Positions 6,256-20,660 of a DNA stretch of 64,000 nucleotides are shown piece after piece; position 1 is the first letter of the stretch, and each line of letters opens with the position of its first letter. The notes beneath the pieces were generated by a model that saw only the letters and a program-made list of their open reading frames with translations, was not told the origin of the DNA and ran no database searches. Source of the stretch: Rhizobacter sp. Root1238. GTDB taxonomy: Bacteria > Pseudomonadota > Gammaproteobacteria > Burkholderiales > Burkholderiaceae_C. Location: positions 428,213 through 492,212 of the forward strand of contig NZ_LMDM01000023.1 in the NCBI RefSeq assembly GCF_001425825.1, in the 5' to 3' direction. Both the position numbers and the translations under genes were made by a program.

Positions 6256-7906
6256 GGATGTCCTTGAACACGCCGTACAGCGGCGTCTTGCGCGCATCGA
6301 ACAGCCGGCCGCCGGTCACCTTCACCAGTTCGCGCAGCTGCTTCTCGTTGGCGTCGCCGAACAGCACCATGAAGACCGGGATCGACCGGGCGTCTTCCGG
6401 CAACTGCTCGTAGTCGCGCCTGAACTCCTCGAAGGTGCGGCCCTTGTTGCTCTCGCCGTCGGTGAACGCCACCACCGAATACTGGTAGCCGGGGTGCTTC
6501 TGCTTCTCGTCGGCCATGTTCTTCAGCGACTTCAGCACCGCGTCGAACAAGGCGGTGCCGCCGCGCATGTTCAAGCCGGCCGCGAAGGCTCGCACCTGCG
6601 CCAGCGCCTTCTGCTTGGCCTCGCTGTCCTCGATCACCTGCACGCCGCGGGCCGCCGGGGCGCCGGCCGGGATCTCGAAGCGCTGCAGGTCGTAGGGGTT
6701 GTCCGAGAACGGCTGCATCCACAGCCGCTCGCGGTTCGTCAGCCGCGCGATGCGCCCGGTCAGCGAGCGGTCGACGCCGGCGATGTAGTCGAGCGCCTGG
6801 ATCAGCTGTTGCTGGCGGCCGTCGCGCTCCATGCTGCCGCTGGTGTCCAGCACGAACGTCGACGCGATCGGCCGGCGGAACTCGTTCAGGTAGGCGTCGA
6901 TCAGGCCGTCGGCCAGCGCGCGGTCGGGCGAGAACGGCAGCTCGATGCGCATCGCGTCGCGCGGCAGGATGTCGGCCACTTTCTCGGCCACCTCGGGCAC
7001 CACCGGCCGCCGCAGCGTCTGGCGCGCGAGCCAGGTCTGCGCCGCCTCGCCCTTCAGGTACGCGACCACCTTCAGGTAGTCGTCGCGCCGGGCATCGTTC
7101 AGCAGCAGCAGCGGGTAGTCGGCGGTGCTCACCCCTTCGTGCGGGTAGACGAGCAGCAGTTTCTCGCGCAGCTTGCCCGATTGGTTCAGGCCCAGCAGCC
7201 AGCTCTCGTAGTTGATGAAGGCGTTGACGTCGACGCCCTGGCGCTCGATGAACTTCTCCGAGAGGTAGGTGGAGTTGTCGCCGGGCAGCCGGTAGCCCTT
7301 CAGGAAGGCTGCGATGGCGCCGCGGTCGACGTCGGCCGCGCCGAGTCCGTCGGTCTTCTGGGCGGCGCTCGCCACCACGCCCAGCAAGGCCATGAAACCC
7401 TGGTTCGAGGTGGCCGGGTTGGACAGCGCGTAGCTCAGCTTGCCGGCCTTCGCGGCGGCGGCGATGTCCTTCCAGGTCACCTTGGCGGCGCGCTCCGGCC
7501 GGTCCCAGCCCAGTTGGCGGGCCGCCGATTCGCTGAGGCCGAGCGCGATCGGCGACAACATGATCTTCTCCTGCAGCTTCACGCGCGACTGGCCCTGCGC
7601 GTCGGACAGCAGGTACTTGGCGTTGGCGAACCACGCGAGGTCGGCACCCGACTGGCCGTTCAGCACCGCCTCGGTGCTTTCCATCGTGCCGCCGAAGCGG
7701 AACTGCAGGTTCACGCCGGTCGCCTTCAGCACCATCTGCTGCAGCGGCTCGATGTCGCGCAGGTCGGTGGTGGCCAGCACCTGCAGCGCCGGGGCCGCGG
7801 GTGGTGGTGGTGGCGGCGCGGCCGCCGTGTCGACCGCGGGCCGGTCGCAGCCGGCCAGCGCCATGCACAACAGCGCCAGAAGCGAAACTCGCAGGGCAAA
7901 CCTCAT
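6242..7906 (-). CDS. Lipoprotein with solute-binding-like and von Willebrand A domains, 554 aa
   Basis: The signal peptide ends in the lipobox LAGC (Cys20) and is followed by a run of six prolines. Residues about 40-300 resemble an extracellular substrate-binding fold (FRFGGTMESTEAVLNGQSGADLAW and a TSNQGF segment). Residues about 345-554 are a vWA domain with an intact MIDAS site: DTSGS at 354-358, a Thr in RGGTALFDAV, and FTDGES. Such domains bind proteins through a metal ion. It is translationally coupled to the upstream binding-protein-like gene (ATGA overlap at 7903-7906) and to the downstream membrane protein. Fusion of a binding fold to a vWA domain on a lipoprotein suggests an envelope sensor or assembly factor. 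Its role is unknown. Confidence 0.85.
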   Translation of the reverse strand: MRFALRVSLLALLCMALAGCDRPAVDTAAAPPPPPPAAPALQVLATTDLRDIEPLQQMVLKATGVNLQFRFGGTMESTEAVLNGQSGADLAWFANAKYLLSDAQGQSRVKLQEKIMLSPIALGLSESAARQLGWDRPERAAKVTWKDIAAAAKAGKLSYALSNPATSNQGFMALLGVVASAAQKTDGLGAADVDRGAIAAFLKGYRLPGDNSTYLSEKFIERQGVDVNAFINYESWLLGLNQSGKLREKLLLVYPHEGVSTADYPLLLLNDARRDDYLKVVAYLKGEAAQTWLARQTLRRPVVPEVAEKVADILPRDAMRIELPFSPDRALADGLIDAYLNEFRRPIASTFVLDTSGSMERDGRQQQLIQALDYIAGVDRSLTGRIARLTNRERLWMQPFSDNPYDLQRFEIPAGAPAARGVQVIEDSEAKQKALAQVRAFAAGLNMRGGTALFDAVLKSLKNMADEKQKHPGYQYSVVAFTDGESNKGRTFEEFRRDYEQLPEDARSIPVFMVLFGDANEKQLRELVKVTGGRLFDARKTPLYGVFKDIRAYQ

Positions 7907-9018
7907 TGACCCATCTCCTTGGTCACCACGTCGATCATTTCCGCCATCAGTTCGAACGAGGGCGGATCCACCACCTGCGTGAGGCGGGTCTCCACCGCCA
8001 GGCCGGTCGGCTGCACGGCCTTCGCGAAGCGCTCGGCATCGGCGATGCGAAAGCCGTGCTGCAGTGCGATGCCCTGCAACTCGGCATCGTTCGACAACAG
8101 CGCACCGAGCGCCTTGGCACGTTCGCTGGTGGCGACGAACACCAGCTTGTTGGTGATGGTGGGCTGCGGGTACAGCAGCACCATGCCGCCGCCGATGCCG
8201 CCCTTGGCAAGCGCATGGCCGACGATCTGGTTCTCGTAGATCCACGCGAGCGGCGTCTTGCCGATGCCCTGGGACACGTAGTCCTCGAAATTGCCATTGA
8301 CGTAGTTCTCCTGGTAGCCCTGGCGCTTGAACAGCTCGGCCAGCCGCAGCGCGGTGCGGCGCGCGGTGTCGCGGTCGCTGACGGTGTCTCCGTTCACGGC
8401 GTTGCTGGCCAGCGCGAGGAACATCGCCGCCGAGTTGCTGCGCCGCACGTCGGTGGTCGATACCAGCACGCTGCGGCTCACGTCGTAGGCCGCGGCGTGC
8501 TTCAGGTCCTTCCAGCGCTTGCGCGCCAGCATCAGCTGCGTGAGCTTGTCCATGTCGACGCCGTACACCTGCGGCTGCAGCGGGCGGGCGATGCCGTTGT
8601 CGACCAGGATCTTCGCGATCGGCTCCCAGGAAGCGATCACCAGCGGCGTGTGGAACGGCGAGTACGACGCGGTGGCGATGCCGGCCTTGCGGCCCGCCTC
8701 GGTCACCTGGGTCGCCGCCACCACGCCGGACGGGAAGAAGAAATCGAGGGTGGCGCCGGGCAGCACCCGGGCGGCCATGTCGCGGCTGCCGATGCGGGTC
8801 ACCTGCACCGGCAAGCGGTGCGCGGCCAGCACCTGCACGACGCGCGGATTCTTGAAGAAGTCCTCGACGTCGACCGCGATCAGCCCGTTCAGCTCGGTCG
8901 CCGCGACCGCCTCGGCGGTGGCCTGCTGCGCCGGGTGGCCGCGCAGCGAGAACCAGAGTGCAGCGCCAAAACCTCCCAGCAGTGCGAGCGTGACCAGGAG
9001 CTTGGCCGTTTTGTTCAT
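7903..9018 (-). CDS. Periplasmic solute-binding-like protein, membrane-anchored, 371 aa
   Basis: An N-terminal hydrophobic segment (LLVTLALLGGFGAALWFSL, about 7-25) acts as a signal anchor or signal peptide. The rest has the two-lobe alternation of substrate-binding proteins (LDFFFPSGVVAATQVT, LVIASWEPIAKILVDNGIA, YPQPTITNKLVFVA). No classical ABC permease or ATPase is adjacent. Instead, the gene overlaps the vWA lipoprotein by 4 bp, so the two are probably made together. It may present a ligand or partner to the vWA protein rather than serve import. First gene of the unit. Confidence 0.75.
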   Translation of the reverse strand: MNKTAKLLVTLALLGGFGAALWFSLRGHPAQQATAEAVAATELNGLIAVDVEDFFKNPRVVQVLAAHRLPVQVTRIGSRDMAARVLPGATLDFFFPSGVVAATQVTEAGRKAGIATASYSPFHTPLVIASWEPIAKILVDNGIARPLQPQVYGVDMDKLTQLMLARKRWKDLKHAAAYDVSRSVLVSTTDVRRSNSAAMFLALASNAVNGDTVSDRDTARRTALRLAELFKRQGYQENYVNGNFEDYVSQGIGKTPLAWIYENQIVGHALAKGGIGGGMVLLYPQPTITNKLVFVATSERAKALGALLSNDAELQGIALQHGFRIADAERFAKAVQPTGLAVETRLTQVVDPPSFELMAEMIDVVTKEMGQ

Positions 9019-9085: not shown

Positions 9086-9952
9086 TCAGACGACGCTGCG
9101 GTGCCGCGCGATGCAGGTGTCCAGCACCTCGCCGCCCGGCCGCTTCCACCAGTCCTCGCTGGAGAAGATCTCGACCTCGCTGTAGCCCGCGTAGCCGGCG
9201 GCTTCGACCCAGCCGCGGATGCGCGGGATGTCGATCACGCCGTCGCCCATCATCGCGCGGTCGTTCAGCAGGTCGCGTGTCGGCAACCGCCAGTCGCAGA
9301 CGTGGAAGGCCATCAGCCGCTCGCGGCCGGCGCGTTCGACCTGCGATTGCAGCTTCGGGTCCCACCACACGTGGTAGACGTCGAGCGCCACCCCCAGCGC
9401 GCCGCTGCGGTCGGGGTCGAGCGCATCGCACAGGTCCAGCGCCTGCTCCATCGTGTTGACGCAGGCGCGGTCGGCCGCGTACATCGGGTGCAGCGGTTCG
9501 ATCGCCAGCGGCATGCCGGCACGGCGTGAATGCTCGAGCGTCGCGGCGATGCCGTCGTGCACCTCGGCCCGCGCGGCGCCGAGGTCCTTGTGCGCGGCCC
9601 GGCCCGCCAGCGCGCCCGGCAGCCCGCCGACCACCAGCACCAGGCAGCGGGCGTTCAGCGCCACGGCCTCGTCGATGGCACGCCGGTTGTCGTCCAGCGC
9701 GCGCTGCCGCCCCGGCGCGTCCTCCGCCGGGAACATGCCGCCGCGGCAGTACCCGGACAACTCGATGCCGGTGTCCCGCACCAGGCCCGCGACCTTGTCG
9801 AGCCCCGCCGCGGCCACCTGGTCGCGCCATGGCGAGATCGCGCGGATGCCCCGGGTCGCACACTCCAGCACGATGCGGTCGAGCGGCCACTGCGCCCGCA
9901 CCGTCGCGGTGTTGATCGACAGCCAGCGGTGGTCGGCGCTGAAGTCCCTCAT
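9086..9952 (-). CDS. Sugar phosphate isomerase/epimerase (xylose-isomerase-like TIM barrel), 288 aa
   Basis: AP-endonuclease-2-type TIM barrel. Metal-binding positions are visible in order: a Glu in LAIEPLHPMY, a Cys/His-rich VCDWRLP segment, an Asp/His pair in ALDVYHVWWDP, and a terminal EVEIFSSEDWW. The family covers sugar isomerases, epimerases, inosose dehydratases and some 3-keto-glycoside lyases. It is the last gene of the leftward operon with the DUF993 protein and the Gfo/Idh/MocA dehydrogenase, so it most likely acts on the dehydrogenase product. The substrate is unknown. Confidence 0.88.
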   Translation of the reverse strand: MRDFSADHRWLSINTATVRAQWPLDRIVLECATRGIRAISPWRDQVAAAGLDKVAGLVRDTGIELSGYCRGGMFPAEDAPGRQRALDDNRRAIDEAVALNARCLVLVVGGLPGALAGRAAHKDLGAARAEVHDGIAATLEHSRRAGMPLAIEPLHPMYAADRACVNTMEQALDLCDALDPDRSGALGVALDVYHVWWDPKLQSQVERAGRERLMAFHVCDWRLPTRDLLNDRAMMGDGVIDIPRIRGWVEAAGYAGYSEVEIFSSEDWWKRPGGEVLDTCIARHRSVV

Positions 9953-9964
9953 GCGGTGTTCACC

Positions 9965-11164
9965 TCAGGCATCCACGCCATGCAGGCCCAGCAGATACCG
10001 CATGCGCCGCGCCGCCAGCTCCGGCTGCTCGACCAGCCCGGCCGCGTCCGCCAGCCGCAGCAGCTCCGCCAGGTGCGGCAGCGAACGCGTGCTCTGCTGC
10101 CCGCCGACCATCGCGAAATGATCCTGGTGCCCGTTGATCCACGCCATGAAGACGACGCCGGTCTTGTAGAAGCGGGTCGGCGCCTTGAAGATGTGGCGCG
10201 ACAGCGGCACCGTCGGCGCGAGGATCGCGTGGAAGCGACTGCGGTCGTGCGCGGCCAGCGCGGCCAGCGCCGCGCTCGCGGCCGGCGCGATCGCGTCGAA
10301 GATGCCGAGCAGCGCATCGCTCTGCCGCTGCGTCGGCGCGCTGCCGACACCGTCGCCGGCGATCAGCTCCGCATAGTTGAAGTCGTCGCCGGTGTACATG
10401 CGCACGCCGGGCGGCAGGCGGCGCCGCATCGCGATCTCGCGGTCCTTGTCGAGCAGCGAGATCTTGATGCCGTCGACCTGGGCCGGGTTGGCCTCGATCA
10501 CCGCGAGCGCGGTGTCCATCGCGCGGTCGACGTCGGCGCTGCCCCAGTAGCCGGCCAGCGCCGGATCGAACATGTCGCCCAGCCAGTGCAGGATCACCGG
10601 CTCGCGCGCCTGGCGCAGCAGCCGGCCGTAGACCTGCAGGTAGTCGTCCGGGCCGCGCGCGACGCGGGCCAGCGCGCGGCTGGCCATCAGGATCAGCCGG
10701 CCTCCGAGCTTCTCGATCGCGGCCATCTGCTCCTCGTAGGCGCGGACCACGTCGTCGACGCCGCGCGCCGCGTCGGGCGCGAGCTGGTCGGTGCCGCAGC
10801 CGCTCGCGACGCGCGCGCCCGGCACGTCGCGCGCTGCATCGAGCGAGCGCGCGATCAGTTCCAGCGAGGTCGGCCAATCGAGCCCCATGCCGCGCTGCGC
10901 GGTGTCCATCGCCTCGGCCACGCCCAGCCCCATGCGCCACAGCCGCTGGCGGTACGCGATGGTGCGGTCCCAGTCGATCGCGCACTGCAGCCACGGGTCG
11001 ACCGGCGCGAGCGCATCGGCCACCACATGCGCCGCCGAGTACGCGATGCGGTTGAAGGCCGGTTGCTCCGGCGCGCGCCACGGCTCGCGCGCCGACAGCG
11101 TGTAACGCGCGAGGCCGCCGTCGGGCTGCGGCAGCTGCAGGGTCAAGTTCGGGGTCAGGCTCAT
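9965..11164 (-). CDS. DUF993 dihydrodipicolinate-synthase-family protein, 399 aa
   Basis: Begins MSLTPNLTLQLP. The whole length matches my memory of the DUF993 branch of class I (Schiff-base) aldolases: FNRIAYSAAHVVADAL at about 39-54, GLDWPTSLELIARSLD, a lysine in VDGIKISLLDK that could form the Schiff base, and YTGDDFNYAELIAGDG. DHDPS-family enzymes cleave or form pyruvate-type keto acids. The ATG at 11164 lies 18 bp after the dehydrogenase gene on the same strand. No member of this branch with a proven reaction is known to me. Confidence 0.85.
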   Translation of the reverse strand: MSLTPNLTLQLPQPDGGLARYTLSAREPWRAPEQPAFNRIAYSAAHVVADALAPVDPWLQCAIDWDRTIAYRQRLWRMGLGVAEAMDTAQRGMGLDWPTSLELIARSLDAARDVPGARVASGCGTDQLAPDAARGVDDVVRAYEEQMAAIEKLGGRLILMASRALARVARGPDDYLQVYGRLLRQAREPVILHWLGDMFDPALAGYWGSADVDRAMDTALAVIEANPAQVDGIKISLLDKDREIAMRRRLPPGVRMYTGDDFNYAELIAGDGVGSAPTQRQSDALLGIFDAIAPAASAALAALAAHDRSRFHAILAPTVPLSRHIFKAPTRFYKTGVVFMAWINGHQDHFAMVGGQQSTRSLPHLAELLRLADAAGLVEQPELAARRMRYLLGLHGVDA

Positions 11165-11181
11165 TGCGTTGCCTTTTGTCG

Positions 11182-12333
11182 TCAGAGCGCCAGCGCCGGC
11201 ACGTCGACCCAGCGCCGCTCCTTCCAGCTTTTCAGCGCCGCCTCCACCAGCTGCACACCCTTGGCCCCTTCGGGCAGCGTGAAGCGGTACGGCGCGTCCT
11301 CGGCCACGTGGCGCAGGAACTGCTCCCACTGCAGCTTGAAGCCGTTGTCGTACGGCTGGGTGTCGGGCACCTCCTGCCATTGATCGAGGAACGGCATGGT
11401 CTGGCGGGTGTCCGGGTTCCACACCGGGCGCGGCGTGTTGACGCGCGCCTGGCTGCGGCAATCGGTCAGCCCGGCCACCGCCGACCCGTGCGTGCCGTCG
11501 ACGTGGAAGGTCACCAGGTCGTCGCGCCGCACCCGCGTCACCCACGAGCTGTTGACCTGCGCGATCACGCCGCCGGCCAGCTGGAAGGTCGCGTAGACGG
11601 CGTCGTCGGCCGTCGCGCGGTAGGGCTGGCCGGCTTCGTCGAAGCGCTCGGGGATGTGCGTGGTGCCGAGGCACGACACCGACTGCACCTCGCCGAACAG
11701 GTTGTCCAGCACGTAGCGCCAGTGGCAGACCATGTCGAGGATGATGCCGCCGCCGTCTTCCTGCCGGTAGTTCCACGACGGCCGCTGGATCGGCTGCAGG
11801 TCGCCTTCGAACACCCAGTAGCCGAACTCGATGCGCACCGACAGGATGCGGCCGAAGAAGCCGGCGCGCTTCAGCATCTCGAGCTTGCGCAGCCCGGGCA
11901 GGAACAGCTTGTCCTGCACGGCGCCGTGCTTCACGCCGGCCGCTTGCGCGAGCCGGCACACCTCCAGCGCCTCGGACAGGTTGGTCGCGATCGGCTTCTC
12001 GCAGTAGACGTGCTTGCCGGCGCGGATCGCCTGCGCCAGCAGCGTCGGGCGCATCTGCGTCGTGCCGGCGTCGAAGAACACCGTGTCGTTGCGGTCGGCC
12101 ATCGCGCCGTCGAGGTTGGTGCCCCAGCGCGCGATGCCGTGCGCCTTCGCGAGCGCCTCGATCTTGCCGGCATCGCGGCCGATCAGCACCGGGTCCGGCA
12201 TCAGCCGGTCGCCGTTGGCAAGCGCCACGCCGCCCTGCTGGCGGATCGCGACGATGGAGCGGATCAGGTGCTGGTTCATGCCCATGCGGCCGGTGACGCC
12301 GTGCATGATCAGACCGAGTCGTTGGGTGGCCAT
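11182..12333 (-). CDS. Gfo/Idh/MocA-family NAD(P)-dependent dehydrogenase, 383 aa
   Basis: The N-terminal Rossmann start MATQRLGLIMHGVTGRMG carries the glycine-rich motif. The EKP motif of the family (HVYCEKPIATN) lies at about 109-119, its lysine being catalytic. The C-terminal alpha/beta domain contains GGGIILDMVCHWRYVLD, with the His expected in the active site. The family oxidises sugars and cyclitols, often at C3. Its place between an enolase-superfamily enzyme and a DUF993/TIM-barrel pair suggests it oxidises the imported compound. Confidence 0.92.
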   Translation of the reverse strand: MATQRLGLIMHGVTGRMGMNQHLIRSIVAIRQQGGVALANGDRLMPDPVLIGRDAGKIEALAKAHGIARWGTNLDGAMADRNDTVFFDAGTTQMRPTLLAQAIRAGKHVYCEKPIATNLSEALEVCRLAQAAGVKHGAVQDKLFLPGLRKLEMLKRAGFFGRILSVRIEFGYWVFEGDLQPIQRPSWNYRQEDGGGIILDMVCHWRYVLDNLFGEVQSVSCLGTTHIPERFDEAGQPYRATADDAVYATFQLAGGVIAQVNSSWVTRVRRDDLVTFHVDGTHGSAVAGLTDCRSQARVNTPRPVWNPDTRQTMPFLDQWQEVPDTQPYDNGFKLQWEQFLRHVAEDAPYRFTLPEGAKGVQLVEAALKSWKERRWVDVPALAL

Positions 12334-12348
12334 GGAAATCCTTGCGGG

Positions 12349-13773
12349 TCAGACGAGTGAAGTGGCTTGCGACAGCGGCTGCATCGCCGACCCGTCCGGC
12401 GTGGCGGTGTGCGCGTAGCCGGGCGCGGCGAGCGAATGGAGGTCGATGCGGCCGCCGGCGATGCGCAGGCGGCCGTCGGCGTCGTACAGGTCGGGATGGG
12501 CCCGCACGAAGGCCTGGCGTTCGACGTCGGGTGCGGCCCCGAAGCCATCGGCATAGTGGTGGCCATTGCGCTCGGCATGCGACAGGCCGAGCAGCGCGGC
12601 CAGCGCCAGGTCCTGCTGCACCGCGAGGCCGGCCTGGCAGGTCAGGTCCTCGGCCGACATGAACCATGCGGGCTCCTGGCCGTCGCGCTGTGCCGCCTGG
12701 TTCCAGCGCTCGCAGCGCGCGCGGTTGACCAGCGACTTGTAGAAGCCCTTGCAGCCCTTGCTCGACACGCCGTGCCAGCCGGCGTCGCGGCCGCGCACGA
12801 AGGCATCGAGCGTGCCGTCGGCCTCGTCCATCAACAAGGGACAGGGCAGTGAGGGCAATGGGCCGTCGAACGAGCGGTCGCGCGGCAGCGGTTGTTCGAG
12901 GTACAGCAGCGCATCCGGCCGCGCGGCGTAGGCCGGCAGCGACGCGAGCCGCGCGAACAGGTCGGACAGCGCCGCGCCATCGCCGTACTGCTCGTTGCCG
13001 TCCAGCGTGTAGCGGTGGCCGGGCGCGTCGCGGTCGAGCACCGACAGCACCTCGGCCAGGCGTTGCACATCGGCCTGCGGATCGCCGCCGAGCTTGATCT
13101 TGAAGACGCGGTGTCCGTGGCGCGCGATCACCGCCGGCAGGCTCACCGGCAGCGCGCCGGCGTCGTCGGGCACGGGCTGCAGTGCATCGAGCAGGCCGAC
13201 GGTGTGGCGGGCTTCGATGTGTTGCCGCGGCACCAGCGTCGGCAGCCAGCCGTTCCAGTCGAAGCCGCGCAGGTCGGGCAGCAGCGGACTCGGCTGCAGG
13301 CCGATTGCGTTGCGCGCGACCGCATCGAACATCGACAGGCCGAGCGCACGGCACAGCGCGTCGATCACCGCGCGATCGACCACCGCCGGGCCGAAGGCGC
13401 TCGCCAGCTCGGTCGCGCCGGCGCGGCGGCCGGCCTCCGCCAGCGCGGTCGCATGGCGCTGGAACAGCTCGAACGCGCTGGCCGACGCATCGCCGGCATA
13501 GGCCTGCACCGTGCGCTCGACCGCGGCGGCGAGCTGGCCGACGTTGTCGGCATGCGTCAGGCCAGGGCGCTTGTCGAACCACTTCGGCACCATCAGCTCG
13601 GCTGCATGGCCTTGCCAGCTGCCGCGGCCGGCCACCTCGACGGTGGCGCGCACGAACAGCTGCGGGCAGCGTGCCAGCGTGACCGCGCCGAAGCGGAACG
13701 GCAGGCGCAGCGACACCGGCCGCACGCCGCAGTCGACCGCCCGCACGACCAGCAGGATGCCTTCGCTTCTCAC
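12349..13773 (-). CDS. Enolase-superfamily (mandelate racemase/muconate cycloisomerase-like) enzyme, 474 aa
   Basis: The C-terminal barrel carries superfamily landmarks: KIKLGGD (the KxK base, about 225), YTLDGNEQYGD (first metal Asp), LYLEQPLPRD (second, Glu), LLMDEADGT (third), and GVSSKGCKG near the other catalytic position. At 474 residues it is longer than typical (about 370-400), with an extended N-terminal capping domain. The start is GTG at 13773, supported by a GGAAAG ribosome-binding site and the 15-bp gap after the ATPase stop. Likely a dehydratase or racemase of an acid sugar, inferred. Confidence 0.82.
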   Translation of the reverse strand: MRSEGILLVVRAVDCGVRPVSLRLPFRFGAVTLARCPQLFVRATVEVAGRGSWQGHAAELMVPKWFDKRPGLTHADNVGQLAAAVERTVQAYAGDASASAFELFQRHATALAEAGRRAGATELASAFGPAVVDRAVIDALCRALGLSMFDAVARNAIGLQPSPLLPDLRGFDWNGWLPTLVPRQHIEARHTVGLLDALQPVPDDAGALPVSLPAVIARHGHRVFKIKLGGDPQADVQRLAEVLSVLDRDAPGHRYTLDGNEQYGDGAALSDLFARLASLPAYAARPDALLYLEQPLPRDRSFDGPLPSLPCPLLMDEADGTLDAFVRGRDAGWHGVSSKGCKGFYKSLVNRARCERWNQAAQRDGQEPAWFMSAEDLTCQAGLAVQQDLALAALLGLSHAERNGHHYADGFGAAPDVERQAFVRAHPDLYDADGRLRIAGGRIDLHSLAAPGYAHTATPDGSAMQPLSQATSLV

Positions 13774-13788
13774 GCGCGCTTTCCGGGT

Positions 13789-14604
13789 TCAATGCGCATC
13801 GAGCGACCCCTGCGCGTAGAAGTGCGCGCGCAGCGTCTTCGCGTACGCGGCGAAGGCCTCGCTGCCCATCACGTCGAGCGAGCGCGGCCGCGGCAGCGCG
13901 ATGTCGTACACCGCGGCGATGGCGCCCGGCCGTTCGGTCATCACGACCACCCGGTCCGACAGGAAGATCGCCTCCGGGATGCTGTGCGTGATCAGCAGCA
14001 CCGTCTTGCCGGACGCGCCCCAGATGCGCTGCAGCTCGAGGTTCATGCGCTCGCGCGTCATCGCGTCGAGCGCGCCGAAGGGCTCGTCCATCAGCAGCAC
14101 CGGCGGGTCGTGCAGCAGCGCGCGCAGGATGGCCACCCGCTGCTGCATGCCGCCCGACAGCTGCCACGGGTACTTGTTCTCGAAGCCGCGCAGCCCGGCC
14201 ATCTCGATCAGCTGCTGCGCGCGCTCGCGGGCCGCCGCCATCGGCAGGCCGCGGATCTCGGCCTGCAGCAGGATGTTGTCGATGACGCGCCGCCACGGCA
14301 GCAGCAGCGCGTTCTGGAACACGATGCCGACATCGGTCTGCGGGCCGTGCACCGCGCGGCCGGACAGCGTCAGTTCACCACCGCTGGCCGGCAGCAGCCC
14401 GGCCACCAGCTTCATCAGCGTGCTCTTGCCGCAGCCCGACGGGCCGACCACCGAGACGAACTCGCCGGCGCGGATCGCGAGGTCGAGCGGGCGCAGCGTC
14501 TCGACGTCGCCATCCTGCGTGCGGTAGGTCTTGCGCAGCCCGCGCACCTCGATCAGCACCGGCGACGTTGCGGCCGACTCGACGGGTTTCAGCACGGCGC
14601 TCAT
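13789..14604 (-). CDS. ABC transporter ATP-binding protein, NitT/TauT (SsuB/TauB) type, 271 aa
   Basis: Walker A GPSGCGKST, signature LSGGMQQR, Walker B VLLMDEPFGALD and the switch His in LLITHSIPEA are all intact. FQNALLLPWRRVIDN is typical of the nitrate/taurine/sulfonate subfamily. The ATG at 14604 is preferred, but an in-frame GTG at 14613, immediately after the binding-protein stop, is possible and adds three residues. It energises the permease at 15639-16421. Confidence 0.93.
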   Translation of the reverse strand: MSAVLKPVESAATSPVLIEVRGLRKTYRTQDGDVETLRPLDLAIRAGEFVSVVGPSGCGKSTLMKLVAGLLPASGGELTLSGRAVHGPQTDVGIVFQNALLLPWRRVIDNILLQAEIRGLPMAAARERAQQLIEMAGLRGFENKYPWQLSGGMQQRVAILRALLHDPPVLLMDEPFGALDAMTRERMNLELQRIWGASGKTVLLITHSIPEAIFLSDRVVVMTERPGAIAAVYDIALPRPRSLDVMGSEAFAAYAKTLRAHFYAQGSLDAH

Positions 14605-14614
14605 CGGCGGCACA

Positions 14615-15610
14615 TCACGGCAGGTGGTCCAGCGAGACGTAGTCTTCCGGCTTGCCGCGGGTGGCCGGGTCCATGCCGCCGTACTGCACCAGCAGGTCCA
14701 GCGATTCGCCGACGTTCTTCATCGACACCCGCAGCGGCCGCAGCGCCCGCGTGTCGTCGGTGTGGTACAGCGCGGTCGTCAGCTTCAGGCCCACCAGCAT
14801 CGTGTCGCGCTGGCCCGACTTCGGGTTGGCCTTCAGCGTTGCGTCGACCGCGGCCTCGGGGTTCTTCTCGGCCTCTTCGAGCGCGCGCGTGGTGGCGCGC
14901 AGGAAGCGCTTCACCAGGTCGGGCTTGGCGGCCAGCGTGTCCTTGTGGGCGACGATGCCGGAGCTGATCAGGTTGACGCCGTAGTCGGCGAAGCGCACCA
15001 GCTGCACCGGCTTCTTCGTCGCGTCCTGCAGCTTGATGTTCTGGTCCATCACATAGCCGAGCAGCAGGTCGGCCTGGCCGTTGATCACCGCGTTCAGCTT
15101 GGTCTGCGCATCGCCCGAGACGGTCTTGAACTGGCCTTCCTGCAGCCCGGTCTTCTTCAGGAACAGCGGCCAGATCTGGCTCATCGAATCGCCCGGCGTC
15201 ATCGCGACGGTCTTGCCGGCGATGTCCTTCGCGGCCTTCACGCCCTTGTCGGCGAAGCCCATCACCGACATCGGGCTCACCTGCAGCGCGACGCCGACCG
15301 CCTTCACCGGCGCACCCTTGGCGGCGGCCTTCATCATCGTCGGCACGTCGACATACCCGAAGGTGGCCGAGCCCGCCGCCACCGCCTGGATCGACACCGC
15401 CGAGCCGCGGCCTTCCTGGATCTCCAGGTCGATGTTCTCGGCCTCGTAGAAGCCTTTCTCCTTGCCGATGAAGAAGGGCGCGTGCTCGCTGTACACGTAC
15501 CAGTTCAGCAGCAGCACGACCTTGTCGCGCGACTGGGCGAAGGCCGGCAGCGCCAGCGTGGCGCCCAGCGCGGAAAGTGCTGCAGCGCGGGCCAGGGTGC
15601 GTCGTCTCAT
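14615..15610 (-). CDS. ABC transporter substrate-binding protein, NMT1/THI5-like, 331 aa
   Basis: Signal peptide MRRRTLARAAALSALGATLALPAFA with cleavage after AFA. The mature part opens DKVVLLLNWYVYSEHAPFFIGKEKGFYE, the hallmark of the NMT1/THI5/SsuA family. The ATG at 15610 is preceded by AAGGAGA 7 bp upstream, so longer in-frame reading is rejected. Members bind pyrimidines, sulfonates or aromatic acids. The ligand cannot be read from sequence, but the attached catabolic genes suggest a carbon source rather than thiamine precursors. Confidence 0.92.
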   Translation of the reverse strand: MRRRTLARAAALSALGATLALPAFAQSRDKVVLLLNWYVYSEHAPFFIGKEKGFYEAENIDLEIQEGRGSAVSIQAVAAGSATFGYVDVPTMMKAAAKGAPVKAVGVALQVSPMSVMGFADKGVKAAKDIAGKTVAMTPGDSMSQIWPLFLKKTGLQEGQFKTVSGDAQTKLNAVINGQADLLLGYVMDQNIKLQDATKKPVQLVRFADYGVNLISSGIVAHKDTLAAKPDLVKRFLRATTRALEEAEKNPEAAVDATLKANPKSGQRDTMLVGLKLTTALYHTDDTRALRPLRVSMKNVGESLDLLVQYGGMDPATRGKPEDYVSLDHLP

Positions 15611-15638
15611 GCGTGTCTCCTTCGTTGTGTGTGTAGCG

Positions 15639-16421
15639 TCAGTGCATCGGCTGCTGCCCGCTGCGCTGCGACGCATGCCACGGCATCAGCCAGCGTTCGA
15701 CCCCTTCGATCGCGAGGAACAGCAGCACGCCGACCAGCGACAGCAGCACCAGCGCGGCGAACATCAGCGGCAGGTCGAAGCTGCCGGTGGCCTTCTGCAG
15801 CACGTAGCCGATGCCGGAGTTCGAGCCGACGAACTCGCCGACCACCGCGCCCACCACCGCCAGCGTCACCGACACCTTCAGGCCGCTGAAGATCGACGGC
15901 AGCGCGGTCGGCAGCCGGAACTTGATGAACACCTTCCACGGGCTCGCGCCCATCGAGCGCGCCAGGTCGATCACGTCGGCCTCGACCGACTTGAAGCCCT
16001 GCACCGTGGCCACCACCACCGGGAAGAAGCCGAGCAGGAAGGCCGCGATCACCTTGGGCACGATGCCGAAGCCGAACCACACGACGAACAGCGGCGCCAC
16101 CGCGACCTTCGGGATCGACTGCGAGAACACCAGCAGCGGGTACACGAAGCTCTCGACCAGCCGCGACGACGCGATCCACATCGCGATCGGCACGCCGAAC
16201 AGCGCCGACAGCGCGAAGCCGGCCAGCGTGGCGGCCAATGTCGGCAGCGTCTCGCGCAGCAGCATCGGCCCTTCGGCGACCAGCTGGTGGGCCACCGACC
16301 ACGGCGTCGGGATCAGGTAGGGCGGGATGCGGAACACCCGCACCGCCAGGTCCCACAGCACCAGCAACGCCAGCAGCAGCCAGGCCGGGCGCAGCGCGGG
16401 AGACAGGAGCCAGCGTTTCAT
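15639..16421 (-). CDS. ABC transporter permease, NitT/TauT type, 260 aa
   Basis: Binding-protein-dependent transport permease with about six helices. The EAA loop reads EADVIDLARSMGASPWKVFIKFRLPTALP, where the conserved Gly of the ATPase docking site is present. The ATG at 16421 is chosen over the in-frame GTG at 16439 because AAGGA lies 7 bp before it. First gene of the leftward transporter-catabolic operon. A palindrome (16435-16450) sits 14 bp before the start. Confidence 0.92.
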   Translation of the reverse strand: MKRWLLSPALRPAWLLLALLVLWDLAVRVFRIPPYLIPTPWSVAHQLVAEGPMLLRETLPTLAATLAGFALSALFGVPIAMWIASSRLVESFVYPLLVFSQSIPKVAVAPLFVVWFGFGIVPKVIAAFLLGFFPVVVATVQGFKSVEADVIDLARSMGASPWKVFIKFRLPTALPSIFSGLKVSVTLAVVGAVVGEFVGSNSGIGYVLQKATGSFDLPLMFAALVLLSLVGVLLFLAIEGVERWLMPWHASQRSGQQPMH

Positions 16422-16434
16422 CGTGCCGTCCTTC

Positions 16435-16450
16435 TTCACCAGTTGGTGAA
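16435..16450. promoter_or_regulatory. Palindrome TTCACC-N4-GGTGAA, candidate TetR operator of the ABC/catabolic operon
   Basis: A perfect 6-bp inverted repeat with spacer AGTT lies in the 45-bp gap between the tetR stop and the permease start. The same half-sites recur at 17129-17144 at the tetR start, with one mismatch. Spacing and sharing by a regulator and its adjacent operon make a TetR operator likely. Confidence 0.7.
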
Positions 16451-16466
16451 TTGTGTGGGCCTGCAG

Positions 16467-17126
16467 TCAGTCCCGCAGGACATAGCCCATCACCACCTCG
16501 GTGATGTGCGACAGGCGCTCCGACAAGGCCTTCGGCGCCATCAGGTCGCGCCCGAAGATGGTCGACAGCGTGTGGTTGTTCGACAGGTAGAAGTACGCGA
16601 GGCCGGCGATCGAGATGTAGAGCTGCACCGCGTCGACGCCGCCGCGGAACACGCCGTCGCGGCGGCCGCGCTCGAGCACCTCGCCGAGCGTCTGCACCAG
16701 CGGCGAGTTCATCTCGAGGATGCGCTTCGACGCCTTCAGGTGGCGGGCGCGGTGCAGGTTCTCGCTGTTCAGCAGCGTCAGGAATTCCGGGTGCGCGAGG
16801 TAGTGTTCCCAGGTGAACGACACCAGCCGGCGCACCGCGTCGGGCGGGCTCAGGCGTTCGAGGTGCAGTTCGCGCTCGGCGTCGCGGATGTCGGCATAGG
16901 TCTGCTCGAGCACCGCGAGGAACAGCTCGTCCTTGCCGCCGAAGTAGTAGTAGATCAGTCGCTTGTTGACGCCGGCGCGCTCGGCGATGCCGTCGATGCG
17001 GGCGCCGCCCAGGCCGCGCTCGGCGAACTCGTGCATCGCGGCGCGCAGGATCTCCTGCTGCGTGCGCTCGGCGTCACGCGTGCGCAGCTCGACGACGTTG
17101 GTGGCAGGCGACGGCATGGCGCCCAT
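16467..17126 (-). CDS. TetR-family transcriptional regulator, RutR/YcdC-like, 219 aa
   Basis: N-terminal helix-turn-helix at about 25-70 (RTQQEILRAAMHEFAERGLG, then ERAGVNKRLIYYYFGGKDELF). The C-terminal region (SFTWEHYLAHPEFLTLLNSEN) resembles the RutR-type ligand domain. The ATG at 17126 sits inside the left arm of a perfect 12-bp inverted repeat, and an alternative ATG lies at 17117. It is upstream of and co-oriented with the ABC/catabolic operon. Matching palindromes at both places suggest it represses both itself and the operon. Confidence 0.9.
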   Translation of the reverse strand: MGAMPSPATNVVELRTRDAERTQQEILRAAMHEFAERGLGGARIDGIAERAGVNKRLIYYYFGGKDELFLAVLEQTYADIRDAERELHLERLSPPDAVRRLVSFTWEHYLAHPEFLTLLNSENLHRARHLKASKRILEMNSPLVQTLGEVLERGRRDGVFRGGVDAVQLYISIAGLAYFYLSNNHTLSTIFGRDLMAPKALSERLSHITEVVMGYVLRD

Positions 17127-17152
17127 AATTCAACGGACGGTGAATTATGGGC
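17121..17152. promoter_or_regulatory. Perfect 12-bp inverted repeat over the tetR start codon
   Basis: GCCCATAATTCA (17121-17132) and TGAATTATGGGC (17141-17152) flank the 8-bp spacer ACGGACGG. The inner part reads TTCAAC-N4-GGTGAA, one base from the palindrome at 16435. The tetR ATG (17124-17126) lies within the left arm, so an occupied site would block transcription and, as RNA, could hide the start codon. Confidence 0.75.
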
Positions 17153-17197: not shown

Positions 17198-18679
17198 TCA
17201 CTTCGGCAGGCGCAGCCCCATCAGGCTGTCGATCGCGCTGCGGCCGATGGTGTTCGGCAGTGCCGGCACGATGGCCTTCAACGCCGCCGGGATCGCGCCG
17301 GGGTGGACCATCGCCACCTGCACCGCGCGCGACTGCTCGTCGAGCAGCACCAGGTAGTAGCGGTCGTCCACCGGCCGGCGCCACACCGGGCCGGCACTGC
17401 CGCGGTTGTTGGCGTCGATCACGGCACCCTGCTTCATCACCGTCAGGCTGTTGGCGTCGAGCAGGTCGGCATCGGCCGCGAAGTGGTCCATCGTGCAGCC
17501 CTTGACGCCGCAGGTGGAACCGCCCAGCGAGCCCACCTGGTACGAGCGGATGCCGGTGCTGATGATGTCGCGGTTGCCGTACTGCGTGCCTTGCGATTCG
17601 GAGACGACCTCGAGGATGTTGATCTGGCCGCAGCCGTCGCCGAGCCCGGCGTTGCCCGGGGTGTTGCTGAAGCAGTGGCAGGGGCTGTAGCCGGACCAGC
17701 CGTCGCGGTACAGCTCCGACGGAGCGACGGCCAGCCACGGCGAGTCTTCGGCCTTCTCGTCCTTGCCGTCGGTGACGCAGCTCAGCGGCTTCATCGACGG
17801 GTCGTCGGCGTAGGGCATGCCGGCCAGCATCACGACCAGCTTCGAGCCCTTCCAGCCGACGAAGTCGAGGTCGGAGCCGGGGCAGTACGGGTCGCTGCCG
17901 GGGCCGCACTTGAACGGCTTCTCCTGCGAAGCGAAGACGGTGCAGCTGTTGCCGAGCTCACTGGGCAGCACCAAGGACTTGTTGGGGCCGGAGAAGTGGA
18001 AGTTGTACGGCTTGTCGGGCGTGCGACGGTCCCAGAACGAGCGGATCGCCCAGTTGCCGTCGGTGGTGGTCAGCGGCTGGTAGACGACCAGCTGCTTGAT
18101 GCGCAACGGGCCGTCGAGCACCAGCCCGAGCTCTTCGTTGAACGGGCTGATCCTGTCGCTGGTCACCTCGTGCTTCGTGCGGCAGCAGGATTCGTCGCCC
18201 CACGGGAACTTGATGACCTCCGACTGCACGTTGCAGCTCGCGCTGCCGGCCTGCGCCTCGATGCGGCGGCCCCAGTAGCCCTTGGCGCCGATGTTGGTGA
18301 AGGTCAGCGTGCCGCCGAGCGTCGGCGTGCCGTTGTTGCTCGTCGGCGACGCGGTGTGGGCCGGCGCCTGGGTGTTGCCGAGGTCGGGCCAGGTGTTGGC
18401 CGACGGGGCCGGTGCGGGGGCCGGGCTGGGTGCGGGGGCGGGGGCCGGTGCCGGGGAGGGCGCCGGGCTCGGTGCGGGACTGGGTGCCGGGGCCGGGCTC
18501 GGCGCGGGTGCAGGACTGGGTGACGGGCTCGGTGCGGGCGCCGGCGCGGGAGCCGGGGCCGGCGAGGGTGCGGCCCCGACGGGCGAAGGGGCGGCGCTGT
18601 CGCCACCGCTGCCGCTGCCGCTGCAGGCGGCGAGGGCAGCGGTCGCGAAGAGGGCGGCCAGCAGGGAGGTCTTTGTCAT
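17198..18679 (-). CDS. TOS1-like (DUF2401/DUF2403) lipoprotein with Pro/Ala/Ser linker, 493 aa
   Basis: The signal peptide ends ALAAC with Cys19 as lipidation site. Residues about 30-95 are a low-complexity alternation of Pro with Ala or Ser, likely an extended wall-spanning linker. The folded part (about 100-493) is cysteine-rich and resembles fungal cell-wall TOS1: NEELGLVLDGPLRIKQLVVYQP recalls its conserved segment, and CHCFSN...GDGCGQINILEV recalls the Cys-rich acidic motif of TOS1 and GH16-type folds. The E of NILEV is a candidate catalytic residue. The function is inferred as surface polysaccharide binding or cleavage. No paired gene is evident. Confidence 0.72.
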   Translation of the reverse strand: MTKTSLLAALFATAALAACSGSGSGGDSAAPSPVGAAPSPAPAPAPAPAPSPSPSPAPAPSPAPAPSPAPSPAPSPAPAPAPAPSPAPAPAPSANTWPDLGNTQAPAHTASPTSNNGTPTLGGTLTFTNIGAKGYWGRRIEAQAGSASCNVQSEVIKFPWGDESCCRTKHEVTSDRISPFNEELGLVLDGPLRIKQLVVYQPLTTTDGNWAIRSFWDRRTPDKPYNFHFSGPNKSLVLPSELGNSCTVFASQEKPFKCGPGSDPYCPGSDLDFVGWKGSKLVVMLAGMPYADDPSMKPLSCVTDGKDEKAEDSPWLAVAPSELYRDGWSGYSPCHCFSNTPGNAGLGDGCGQINILEVVSESQGTQYGNRDIISTGIRSYQVGSLGGSTCGVKGCTMDHFAADADLLDANSLTVMKQGAVIDANNRGSAGPVWRRPVDDRYYLVLLDEQSRAVQVAMVHPGAIPAALKAIVPALPNTIGRSAIDSLMGLRLPK

Positions 18680-18929: not shown

Positions 18930-20660
18930 ATGACCGACTCTCCGTCCCATTCGCCACGCCCGCAACGACTGGCCGGCCACGTGCTGGTCGAAGCGCTGAT
19001 CGCGCAAGGCATCGACACCGTCTTCGGCGTGCCCGGCGAGAGCTACCTGGCCGTGCTCGACGGCTTCCACGAGCACGCCGACAAGATCCGCTTCATCGCC
19101 TGCCGGCAGGAGGGCGGTGCCGCCTTCATGGCCGAGGCGCAGGGCAAGCTGACCGGCCGCCCGGGCGTCTGCTTCGTGACGCGCGGCCCCGGCGCCACCA
19201 ACGCCAGCATCGGGCTGCACACGGCCTTCCAGGACAGCACGCCGATGGTGCTGTTCATCGGCCAGGTGGCCAGCGACCAGCGCGACCGCGAGGCCTTCCA
19301 GGAGCTGGACTACCGGCAGGTGTTCGGCCCCGGCACGCTCGGGTTCGCGAAGTGGGTCGGCGAGGTGCACGACCCGGCGCGGCTGCCCGAATACATCTCG
19401 CGCGCCTTCCACACCGCGCTGCAGGGCCGGCCCGGGCCGGTGGTGCTGGTGCTGCCGGAAGACATGCTGACGCAGGCCACCGACGCACCGGTGCTGCCGC
19501 GCGCCGAGCCGGCCCACGCCTGGCCCGCGCCGGGCGGCCTGCGCGACCTGCGGGCGTTGCTGATGGCCGCCGAGCGGCCGTTCGTGATCGCCGGCGGCAG
19601 CGGCTGGGATGCGGCCGCCTGCGCCGCGCTGCAGCGCTTCGCCGAGAACTGGAACCTGCCGGTCGGCTGCGCGTTCCGCTTCCAGGACCTGTTCGACAAC
19701 CGGCATGCCAACTACGCCGGCGATGTCGGCATCGGCATCAACCCAGCGCTCGCGCGGCGCATCGGCGAAGCCGACCTGGTGATCGCCGTCGGCGCGCGGC
19801 TGGGCGAGATGACGACCGGGGGCTACACGCTGCTGAAGGCGCCGCGGCCGCTGCAGAAGCTGGTGCACATCCACGCCGGGCCGGAGGAACTCGGCCGCGT
19901 CTATGTCGCCGACCTGCTGCTGCAGTCGTCGATGGCCGCCGCGGCGAAGGCGCTCGAAGCGCTGGCCGCGCCCACCCGGCCCGCCTGGGGCGACTGGACG
20001 GCCGCCGCGCATGCCGACTACGAAGCGAATCACGTCGCCGCCGCGGTGCAGCCGCTCGACATGGCCGAGGTCATCAAGACCATCCAGCGCCTCGCACCGG
20101 CCGACACCGTCTACACCAACGGCGCCGGCAACTACAGCGGCTGGCTGCACCGCTTCTGCCGCTACCACGGCCTGCAGCACGCCGGCCGCACGCAGCTCGC
20201 GCCGACCGCCGGTGCGATGGGCTACGGCGTGCCGGCGGCGGTGGCCGCGGCGCTGCTGTACCCCGAGCGCACCGTCGTCAACATTGCCGGCGACGGCGAT
20301 TTCCTGATGACCGGGCAGGAGCTCGCGACCGCCACCGGCTACGGCGCGAAGCGGCTGATCAGCGTCGTCGTCGACAACGGCACCTACGGGACGATCCGCA
20401 TGCACCAGGAGCGCGAGTACCCCGGGCGCGTCAGCGGCAGCGACCTGTTCAACCCGGACTTCGCGGCGCTGGCCGAAGCCTTCGGCTGGCGCGCGGCGCG
20501 TGTCTCGGACACTGCCGGCTTCGAGCCGGCGTTTGCCGCCGCGCTCGACAGCGGCCGCCCGACGCTGCTGCACCTGAAGCTCGATGCCGACGTCAGCACC
20601 AGCCGCAGCAGCCTGCAGGCGATCCGCGACGCGGCAAAGCGCCGGCTGGGCCAGGCATGA
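18930..20660 (+). CDS. Thiamine-diphosphate enzyme, acetolactate synthase-like, 576 aa
   Basis: Three-domain ThDP-dependent enzyme. The N-terminal catalytic Glu lies in FGVPGESYLAVLDG (about 31-44). The central Rossmann domain contains FVIAGGSGWD. The C-terminal ThDP/Mg motif starts GDGDFLMTGQEL and ends VVDNGTYG. It is close in length to acetolactate synthase large subunits, but no small subunit is adjacent and several such paralogues act in benzoylformate, glyoxylate or sulfonate metabolism. The ATG at 18930 lacks a clear ribosome-binding site. The specific reaction is not assigned. Confidence 0.85.
   Translation: MTDSPSHSPRPQRLAGHVLVEALIAQGIDTVFGVPGESYLAVLDGFHEHADKIRFIACRQEGGAAFMAEAQGKLTGRPGVCFVTRGPGATNASIGLHTAFQDSTPMVLFIGQVASDQRDREAFQELDYRQVFGPGTLGFAKWVGEVHDPARLPEYISRAFHTALQGRPGPVVLVLPEDMLTQATDAPVLPRAEPAHAWPAPGGLRDLRALLMAAERPFVIAGGSGWDAAACAALQRFAENWNLPVGCAFRFQDLFDNRHANYAGDVGIGINPALARRIGEADLVIAVGARLGEMTTGGYTLLKAPRPLQKLVHIHAGPEELGRVYVADLLLQSSMAAAAKALEALAAPTRPAWGDWTAAAHADYEANHVAAAVQPLDMAEVIKTIQRLAPADTVYTNGAGNYSGWLHRFCRYHGLQHAGRTQLAPTAGAMGYGVPAAVAAALLYPERTVVNIAGDGDFLMTGQELATATGYGAKRLISVVVDNGTYGTIRMHQEREYPGRVSGSDLFNPDFAALAEAFGWRAARVSDTAGFEPAFAAALDSGRPTLLHLKLDADVSTSRSSLQAIRDAAKRRLGQA

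Follow-up and report, generated by a model that had tools for sequence, protein, structure and literature searches.

A gene cluster that includes DUF993, a protein family with no reaction assigned in the records searched, lies in the genome of Rhizobacter sp. Root1238 (Burkholderiales; assembly GCF_001425825.1), and was analysed here within a window of 64,000 nucleotides (contig NZ_LMDM01000023.1, positions 428,213 to 492,212). A preliminary description, made from the sequence alone, had placed a seven-gene catabolic operon at 9086-16421 of this window, and all seven genes are indeed present there on the minus strand, with intergenic gaps of 1 to 28 bp. What that description omitted is an eighth gene, tetR, which heads the unit 45 bp from the permease gene, together with two palindromes that are candidate operators (Table 1). 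The unit would thus combine a regulator, an ATP-binding cassette (ABC) importer and four enzymes, and we interpret it as a single acid-catabolic operon, an interpretation that we hold with more confidence than the complete mechanistic scheme developed below.

Table 1. Features of the DUF993 operon, with positions in the window
Feature	Coordinates	Strand	Basis and remarks
Likely TetR operator 1, AATTCAACGGACGGTGAATT	17127..17146		Candidate; directly before tetR; 0 mismatches to AATTMAMYNNNNRGTKAATT
TetR-family regulator, first gene of unit	16467..17126	-	PF00440 and PF17938; alternative start ATG 17117
Likely TetR operator 2	16433..16452		Candidate; just upstream of permease ATG; 2 mismatches to AATTMAMYNNNNRGTKAATT
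ABC importer permease	15639..16421	-	PF00528, 121.8 bits; ATG 16421
NMT1/THI5-type periplasmic binding protein	14615..15610	-	PF09084, 157.4 bits; ATG 15610; signal peptide apparent by eye
ABC importer ATPase (taurine/nitrate-type)	13789..14613	-	PF00005, 106.5 bits
Enolase-superfamily enzyme, muconate-lactonising/dipeptide-epimerase-like, own clade	12349..13773	-	GTG start; sub-threshold PF13378 and predicted structure
Gfo/Idh/MocA dehydrogenase	11182..12333	-	PF22725, 85.1 bits
DUF993, DHDPS-fold, class-I-aldolase-like	9965..11164	-	PF06187, 611 bits, scored from 11110; ATG 11164
Xylose-isomerase-like TIM barrel	9086..9952	-	PF01261, 130 bits

Conservation and extent of the operon

The arrangement of these genes is not due to chance, for 27 of 80 related loci contain all eight with the same order and strand as in the window, as counted by a script with a span limit of 10 kb. 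The 80 loci were taken from the top of 594 confirmed matches and so represent near relatives, several of them on short contigs; the organisms named among the matches include Ramlibacter, Variovorax, Pseudacidovorax, Bradyrhizobium, Microvirga and Azospirillum. Many bacteria that live in soil or in association with plants carry the gene set. Seven genes stand in order in a further four loci, TetR lying downstream in L081, L101 and L107; in L038 TetR is found in front of the seven ordered genes, over a span that exceeds the limit of the script. Judged by identity thresholds of our own choosing, homologues of the TIM barrel occur in 72 of the 80 loci, of the dehydrogenase in 71, of TetR in 62, of the enolase-superfamily enzyme in 52 and of the NMT1 binding protein in 31. 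Open reading frames behind these gene clusters, and behind the assignment of palindromes to gene starts, were chosen by our own script, which places some starts too early. The earlier view of the genes as one catabolic operon is upheld by this conserved order.

A homologue of the next gene downstream (7903-9018) was found in none of the 80 loci; the gene was rejected as a member, and the conserved unit therefore ends at 9086. Of 399 genomes drawn from the order of the window, 28 carry DUF993; among 398 from the phylum it is present in 36, with six genomes shared by the two draws. Its distribution takes in Burkholderiales, Bradyrhizobium, Rhizobiaceae and some Actinomycetota.

Importer, enolase-superfamily enzyme and the nature of the substrate

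The binding protein has sequence relatives in the PDB that include the solute-binding protein 4nmy, THI5/THI13 and a formylaminopyrimidine-binding protein, and the best NCBIfam model for the ATPase is a taurine ATPase (225 bits, under the cut-off of 357). Among the related loci the NMT1 importer is found in 31 and TctA in 18, with no locus holding both, and where the NMT1 importer is absent a TctA/TctB/TctC importer often occupies the same place (families assigned from one representative each). When importers are counted in the subset of 57 loci with long flanks, the NMT1 type is found in 29, TctA in 12, both in none and neither in 16. Presence of the enolase-superfamily gene is linked to that of an importer, in that 38 of the 40 long-flank loci with this gene also carry one importer type. 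TctC-type proteins bind carboxylates, and the chemistry of the enolase superfamily requires a carboxylate on the substrate, its first step being removal of the proton next to that group. Because the NMT1 importer is swapped for TctA/TctC-type carboxylate importers, and because the enolase-superfamily enzyme is tied to an importer, an organic acid is supported as the substrate of the pathway, in agreement with the preliminary description; it is probably a polyhydroxylated, sugar-like carboxylate.

TctC genes also occur singly. In many loci one stands behind a palindrome and is followed by the dehydrogenase gene, not by TctA or TctB, and in L038, L047, L054 and L057 DUF993 and the TIM barrel are separated by inserted genes for a TctC, a short-chain dehydrogenase and a 3-hydroxyisobutyrate-dehydrogenase-like protein.

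Membership of the enolase superfamily, with a fold of the muconate-lactonising enzyme (MLE) group, is supported by the predicted structure, despite a sub-threshold Pfam score (MR_MLE_C, PF13378; 27.2 bits, below the 29.4 cut-off). A single-sequence search against the PDB returned no enolase match; a profile built on 27 relatives does find dipeptide epimerases and muconate cycloisomerases, the strongest match standing at 2e-6. The predicted model has a predicted local distance difference test (pLDDT) score of 94 and a Z of 33.1 to 3dg6, with Z from 33 to 29 over the best 50 entries listed in the VIA ranking. That ranking is headed by MLE, dipeptide-epimerase and N-succinylamino acid racemase (NSAR) structures, many rows being close in Z, and the first 50 Foldseek rows also contain tartrate, talarate/galactarate and glucarate dehydratases; neither listing excludes a family that does not appear in it. 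The KxK, DxN, E, DE and K residues are invariant in 27 of 27 rows, including K210 and K212 of KxK and the three acidic metal ligands D243, E278 and D301 (numbering of 12349-13728). K324, a candidate for the catalytic Lys expected where strand 6 ends, is likewise invariant and lies just after strand E320-323, but the profile alignment to 2p88 puts it two residues off. In fold and in the invariant KxK, DxN, E and DE, the protein resembles the muconate cycloisomerase/NSAR/dipeptide epimerase group, from which its clade differs in length (about 460-474 residues against about 370), in its sub-threshold Pfam score and in the distance of its best profile match.

This clade is nearly private to genomes with DUF993. 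At E below 1e-80, a limit that we set, it is present in 15 of the 399 order genomes, 14 of which carry DUF993 on the same contig; in the exception, G271, the enolase gene is split over two contigs. Matches at E 0.001 extend to 46 of the 399 genomes, the remainder being weak matches to the wider superfamily.

Predicted chemistry of the dehydrogenase, the TIM barrel and DUF993

In the dehydrogenase, K113 (of an EKP motif), D200 and H204 align with the catalytic Lys-Asp-His set of 1,5-anhydrofructose reductase. Its close homologue 3oqb (670 bits) is named only oxidoreductase, and its similarity to levoglucosan dehydrogenase is weak (54 of 650 bits in NCBIfam). The TIM barrel is close to 3ju2 and 3qc0 (352 and 351 bits; SMc04130; sugar isomerase) and to 7vpf, none of which has a substrate in its name. 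Its metal tetrad E152, D191, H217 and E261 is intact and aligns with IolI and with TM_0416, which we take to be IolO; the E-D-H-E positions are the metal ligands of IolI. A TIM-barrel profile matches IolI (4e-26), TM_0416 (1e-19), ketose 3-epimerases (8e-18) and a 3-keto-glucoside 4-epimerase (5e-16), and the residues predict a metal site of the epimerase type. A second, distantly related xylose-isomerase-like TIM barrel is encoded in nine of the 80 loci (L042, L044, L047, L052, L058, L070, L091, L096 and L106), mostly adjoining TctABC and enolase genes.

These resemblances invite comparison with inositol breakdown, in which case a cyclitol carboxylate would undergo IolG-like oxidation, IolI/IolE-like isomerisation and cleavage. 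IolG is the best NCBIfam match of the dehydrogenase, and IolI is the best match of the TIM profile after three unassigned or isomerase-named close homologues. However, the score to IolG (67.4 bits) falls far below the cut-off of 355, Pfam and NCBIfam give no iolB, iolC, iolD or iolJ match for any of the eight genes, and we consider an inositol-like pathway very unlikely.

The preliminary description had put forward 3-keto-glycoside breakdown beside a sugar-acid route. On the former the dehydrogenase would oxidise a glycoside or uronoside at C3, elimination or hydrolysis of the glycosidic bond would fall to the TIM barrel, and DUF993 would cleave the released keto sugar. We know of no NMT1 or TctA/TctC importer that acts as a glycoside importer, which speaks against this route, as does the presence of only one isomerase-like enzyme and one dehydrogenase in the window operon. 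Gfo/Idh/MocA enzymes and isomerase-like TIM barrels are indeed found together in glycoside beta-elimination operons (A. tumefaciens GlycDH/OGE, dgp and lgd), as described in parts of PMC7676230 and PMC10628242. The weak levoglucosan dehydrogenase similarity and the match to 3-keto-glucoside 4-epimerase point the same way, and the Glu at the strand-5 metal position of the TIM barrel is shared with C-glycoside eliminases (PMC10628242, in part). Nevertheless, the eliminases of that account carry a catalytic His at the second residue past the strand-5 metal ligand (His132/His134 in AtOGE, His143 in PuCGE), whereas the sequence of the TIM barrel at this point, E152-P153-L154-H155, has Leu at the place of the His of both O- and C-glycoside eliminases and His one position further, at the third. 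The oxidation-elimination-hydration-reduction operons described there carry a second isomerase-like enzyme and a reductase, and the A. tumefaciens and levoglucosan operons have two isomerase-like enzymes and a further oxidoreductase; the window operon has neither extra enzyme and carries instead an acid importer, an enolase-superfamily enzyme and DUF993. No DUF993-like aldolase is named for the described operons, in so far as these sources cover them, and the word "aldolase" is absent from the main text of PMC10628242. The glycoside route is weakened by Leu154 and by the missing second isomerase and reductase, and we rate it as improbable.

DUF993 has a solved homologue, 4dnh (SMc04132 of Sinorhizobium meliloti, released in 2012), which is 65% identical and titled hypothetical protein. 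The AlphaFold model (pLDDT 86.7) is a (beta/alpha)8 barrel with a C-terminal helical domain, and matches structures of dihydrodipicolinate synthase (DHDPS) with Z about 29 and a root-mean-square deviation of 2.3 over about 285 residues, at 11-18% identity in the rows listed. There is no PF00701 match for the protein, which stands outside the six PF00701 matches of its own genome. When DUF993 was aligned by hhalign with five DHDPS-family proteins of the same genome (E 7e-5), Lys216, in strand E212-217, was paired with the Schiff-base lysine of strand 6, and TGDD with SGDD (numbering of 9965-11110, in which Lys216 is Lys234 of the full-length protein). Six reruns with fewer templates retain the pairing of Lys in five cases, of His with Tyr (see below) in four and of the motif in two, the other alignments stopping short of those residues; the Lys and the His are invariant in 40 of 40 DUF993 sequences. 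The likeness to the DHDPS/N-acetylneuraminate lyase family therefore comprises the fold, the lysine and the SGDD/TGDD motif. Lys234 is likely to be the Schiff-base lysine, and in respect of this residue DUF993 may act as class-I aldolases do; the earlier description of the protein as aldolase-like agrees with both fold and aligned lysine.

By its other defining residues, as aligned, DUF993 falls outside the pyruvate-dependent family. Several features of the alignment count against a simple retro-aldol reaction: hhalign gives it a probability of 63% with the five templates and of 2-42% when fewer are used; His175 (His193 of the full-length protein) is paired with the catalytic Tyr of strand 5; and D-T-A-Q-R stands where the pyruvate-binding motif GTTGE (GxTGE) sits in the DHDPS family. 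Because both the catalytic Tyr and GTTGE are replaced, DUF993 may catalyse something other than an aldol cleavage, and the altered binding motif suggests that a ketone other than pyruvate may be the partner.

The same residues bear on a non-phosphorylative sugar-acid pathway. In the Dahms and De Ley-Doudoroff routes an acid-sugar dehydratase forms a 2-keto-3-deoxy acid, which is then split into pyruvate and an aldehyde; here the enolase-like enzyme would be the dehydratase and DUF993 would perform the split. The conjunction of an enolase-superfamily enzyme with a DHDPS-fold protein fits such a route, as do the sugar-acid dehydratases among the first 50 Foldseek rows. DUF993, however, is without the pyruvate-carboxylate motif and the catalytic Tyr, the VIA ranking places MLE, dipeptide-epimerase and NSAR structures first, though with many rows close in Z, and no dehydrogenase or epimerase would be needed after the dehydratase. 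A sugar-acid route is possible, and we give it a low probability.

The names DUF993, PF06187 and IPR009334 were not found in the open-licence literature searched, which lacks most subscription journals; in the same literature SMa gene names gave nothing relevant, and PDB accessions of the homologues appeared only as chance strings. In a table of PMC12542648, the part of that source that bears on these genes, SMc04132 is an uncharacterised protein and SMc04133 a putative oxidoreductase, while SMc04135, SMc04138 and SMc04139 are listed without function; SMc04134 is a transcription factor in the relevant part of PMC11387232. None of the systems compared matches the gene set in full, and the searches made found no matching described pathway; the pathway may be undescribed, as had been suggested.

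Regulation, other contexts and the proposed pathway

The two palindromes are predicted to be TetR operators, and likely so. When up to two mismatches are allowed and each strand is counted, the 20-bp pattern AATTMAMYNNNNRGTKAATT matches the window four times, whereas shuffles give a mean of 0.01; operator 1 is the inner part of an extended imperfect palindrome, which reads CCCATAATTCACCGTCCGTTGAATTATGGG on the minus strand. With at most one mismatch there are 50 sites in 27 of the 80 loci and none in three shuffled sets, and 42 of the 50 lie just before a gene start (TctC 24, tetR 16, dehydrogenase 2). The loci and the window that supplied the pattern are also those in which it was counted, so that its independent support comes from where the sites lie, next to gene starts, and from the shuffle control. 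Elsewhere in the Rhizobacter genome there is a single further place, with two mismatches and no better than the reversed-pattern control, so that in its own genome the pathway looks self-contained. Among 27 other DUF993 genomes of the order, searched at one mismatch, sites within about 8 kb of DUF993 were found in four (G171, G255, G294 and G350). Copies distant from DUF993, with no control matches, include G023:C9:113828-113863 (two in tandem), G137:C64:5529-5548 and G052:C86:4690-4709; such distant palindromes may belong to a wider regulon, to other genes or to another regulator.

Beyond TetR, a thiamine pyrophosphate-dependent enzyme at 18930-20660 on the plus strand, opposite to TetR (NCBIfam PRK08199, 823 bits), was considered as a ninth member and rejected. 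A homologue is encoded on the other strand in 17 of the 80 loci and directly adjoins TetR in at least 13, but matches of E 1e-100 or better occur in 142 of the 399 order genomes, against 28 for DUF993. As it is common in genomes without DUF993, we regard it as shared neighbourhood and not as a dedicated part. Between it and TetR, 17198-18679 on the minus strand encodes a lipoprotein-like protein with a long proline/alanine/serine repeat near its N-terminus, of which an NCBIfam model match covers the first 82 residues only. In Bradyrhizobium loci such as L072, L073, L075 and L076, a VOC/glyoxalase gene (family from one member) stands directly before TetR.

DUF993 was also followed on plasmids, in 14 annotated regions hand-picked among 40 listed of 147 PLSDB records, the annotation of which is incomplete; a fifteenth region without annotation was left out. 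Hosts include Paracoccus, Rhizobium, Sinorhizobium, Caballeronia and Rhodococcus. Four of the 14 (L110, on pSymA of S. meliloti, L116, L132 and L133) are versions of a single conserved cluster, which holds genes for aldo/keto reductases, a coenzyme A (CoA)-transferase, an enoyl-CoA hydratase, a glycerate kinase, an acyl-CoA dehydrogenase, a short-chain dehydrogenase, DUF993, a TIM barrel and electron-transfer flavoproteins. The TIM barrel follows DUF993 in 10 of the 14 regions, and the pair looks like a portable module that could draw its ketone from different dehydrogenases. Glycerate kinase is found near DUF993 in seven of the 14, which hints at a three-carbon product, glycerate or glyceraldehyde.

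A CoA-transferase is nearby in 10 of these 14 regions and a short-chain dehydrogenase directly precedes DUF993 in eight, contexts that suggest a different or wider chemistry. On this evidence DUF993 and the TIM barrel might act on acyl-CoA oxidation products of an alicyclic or hydroxylated acid, the Gfo/Idh/MocA dehydrogenase replacing the short-chain enzyme in Burkholderiales. The window operon, however, contains no CoA gene, the pattern search of its own genome gave no further convincing target, and the regions in question were hand-chosen; a CoA-linked pathway of this kind seems to us quite unlikely.

We favour instead a scheme of TetR-controlled acid uptake, oxidation, epimerisation and cleavage. 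Gene order, palindromes, importer exchange, folds and catalytic residues were computed, and from these we infer every reaction. TetR would sit on the two palindromes and be released when the acid or a product of it appears, and the NMT1-type ABC importer would carry the acid into the cell. The enolase-superfamily enzyme would epimerise, dehydrate or open the acid, starting at the proton next to the carboxylate; the Gfo/Idh/MocA enzyme would convert one hydroxyl to a ketone, and the TIM-barrel metalloenzyme would epimerise or isomerise next to that ketone. Through Lys234, DUF993 would then capture the ketone as a Schiff base and cut a carbon-carbon bond by a class-I retro-aldol reaction, at least one product perhaps being the three-carbon glycerate or glyceraldehyde unit. 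The enolase step may fall elsewhere in the sequence, and epimerisation may precede or follow cleavage. Taken as a whole it is tentative, and we put its chances a little short of even. A bolder version appears rather unlikely: that DUF993 is a new class-I aldolase branch, with a ketose-like ketone in place of pyruvate as Schiff-base partner and His in place of Tyr, and forms with the private enolase clade an undescribed non-phosphorylating oxidise-epimerise-cleave route for a common acid derived from plants or soil.

Besides the replaced residues of DUF993 and the CoA-transferase and short-chain dehydrogenase contexts, several observations weigh against the scheme. By our thresholds, and with several loci on short contigs, the dehydrogenase is missing in nine of the 80 loci and the TIM barrel in eight, and 16 of the 57 long-flank loci have neither importer; some plasmid regions carry sugar-type ABC importers. 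The TIM profile held four rows of the distant second TIM family, and the window protein alone reaches IolI at only 2e-4. The palindrome is confined to 27 of the 80 loci; at one mismatch it was not found in the Bradyrhizobium loci or in 11 of the 27 other DUF993 genomes of the order, and in the 16 that do have sites (the reversed control has none) many are distant from DUF993.

For three of the four catabolic enzymes there are homologues of solved structure, none of them with a substrate in its name. As parts of one acid-linked pathway, the likely operator of which could report the inducer, these three orphan structures and the enolase clade, itself unnamed, would become a single testable system.

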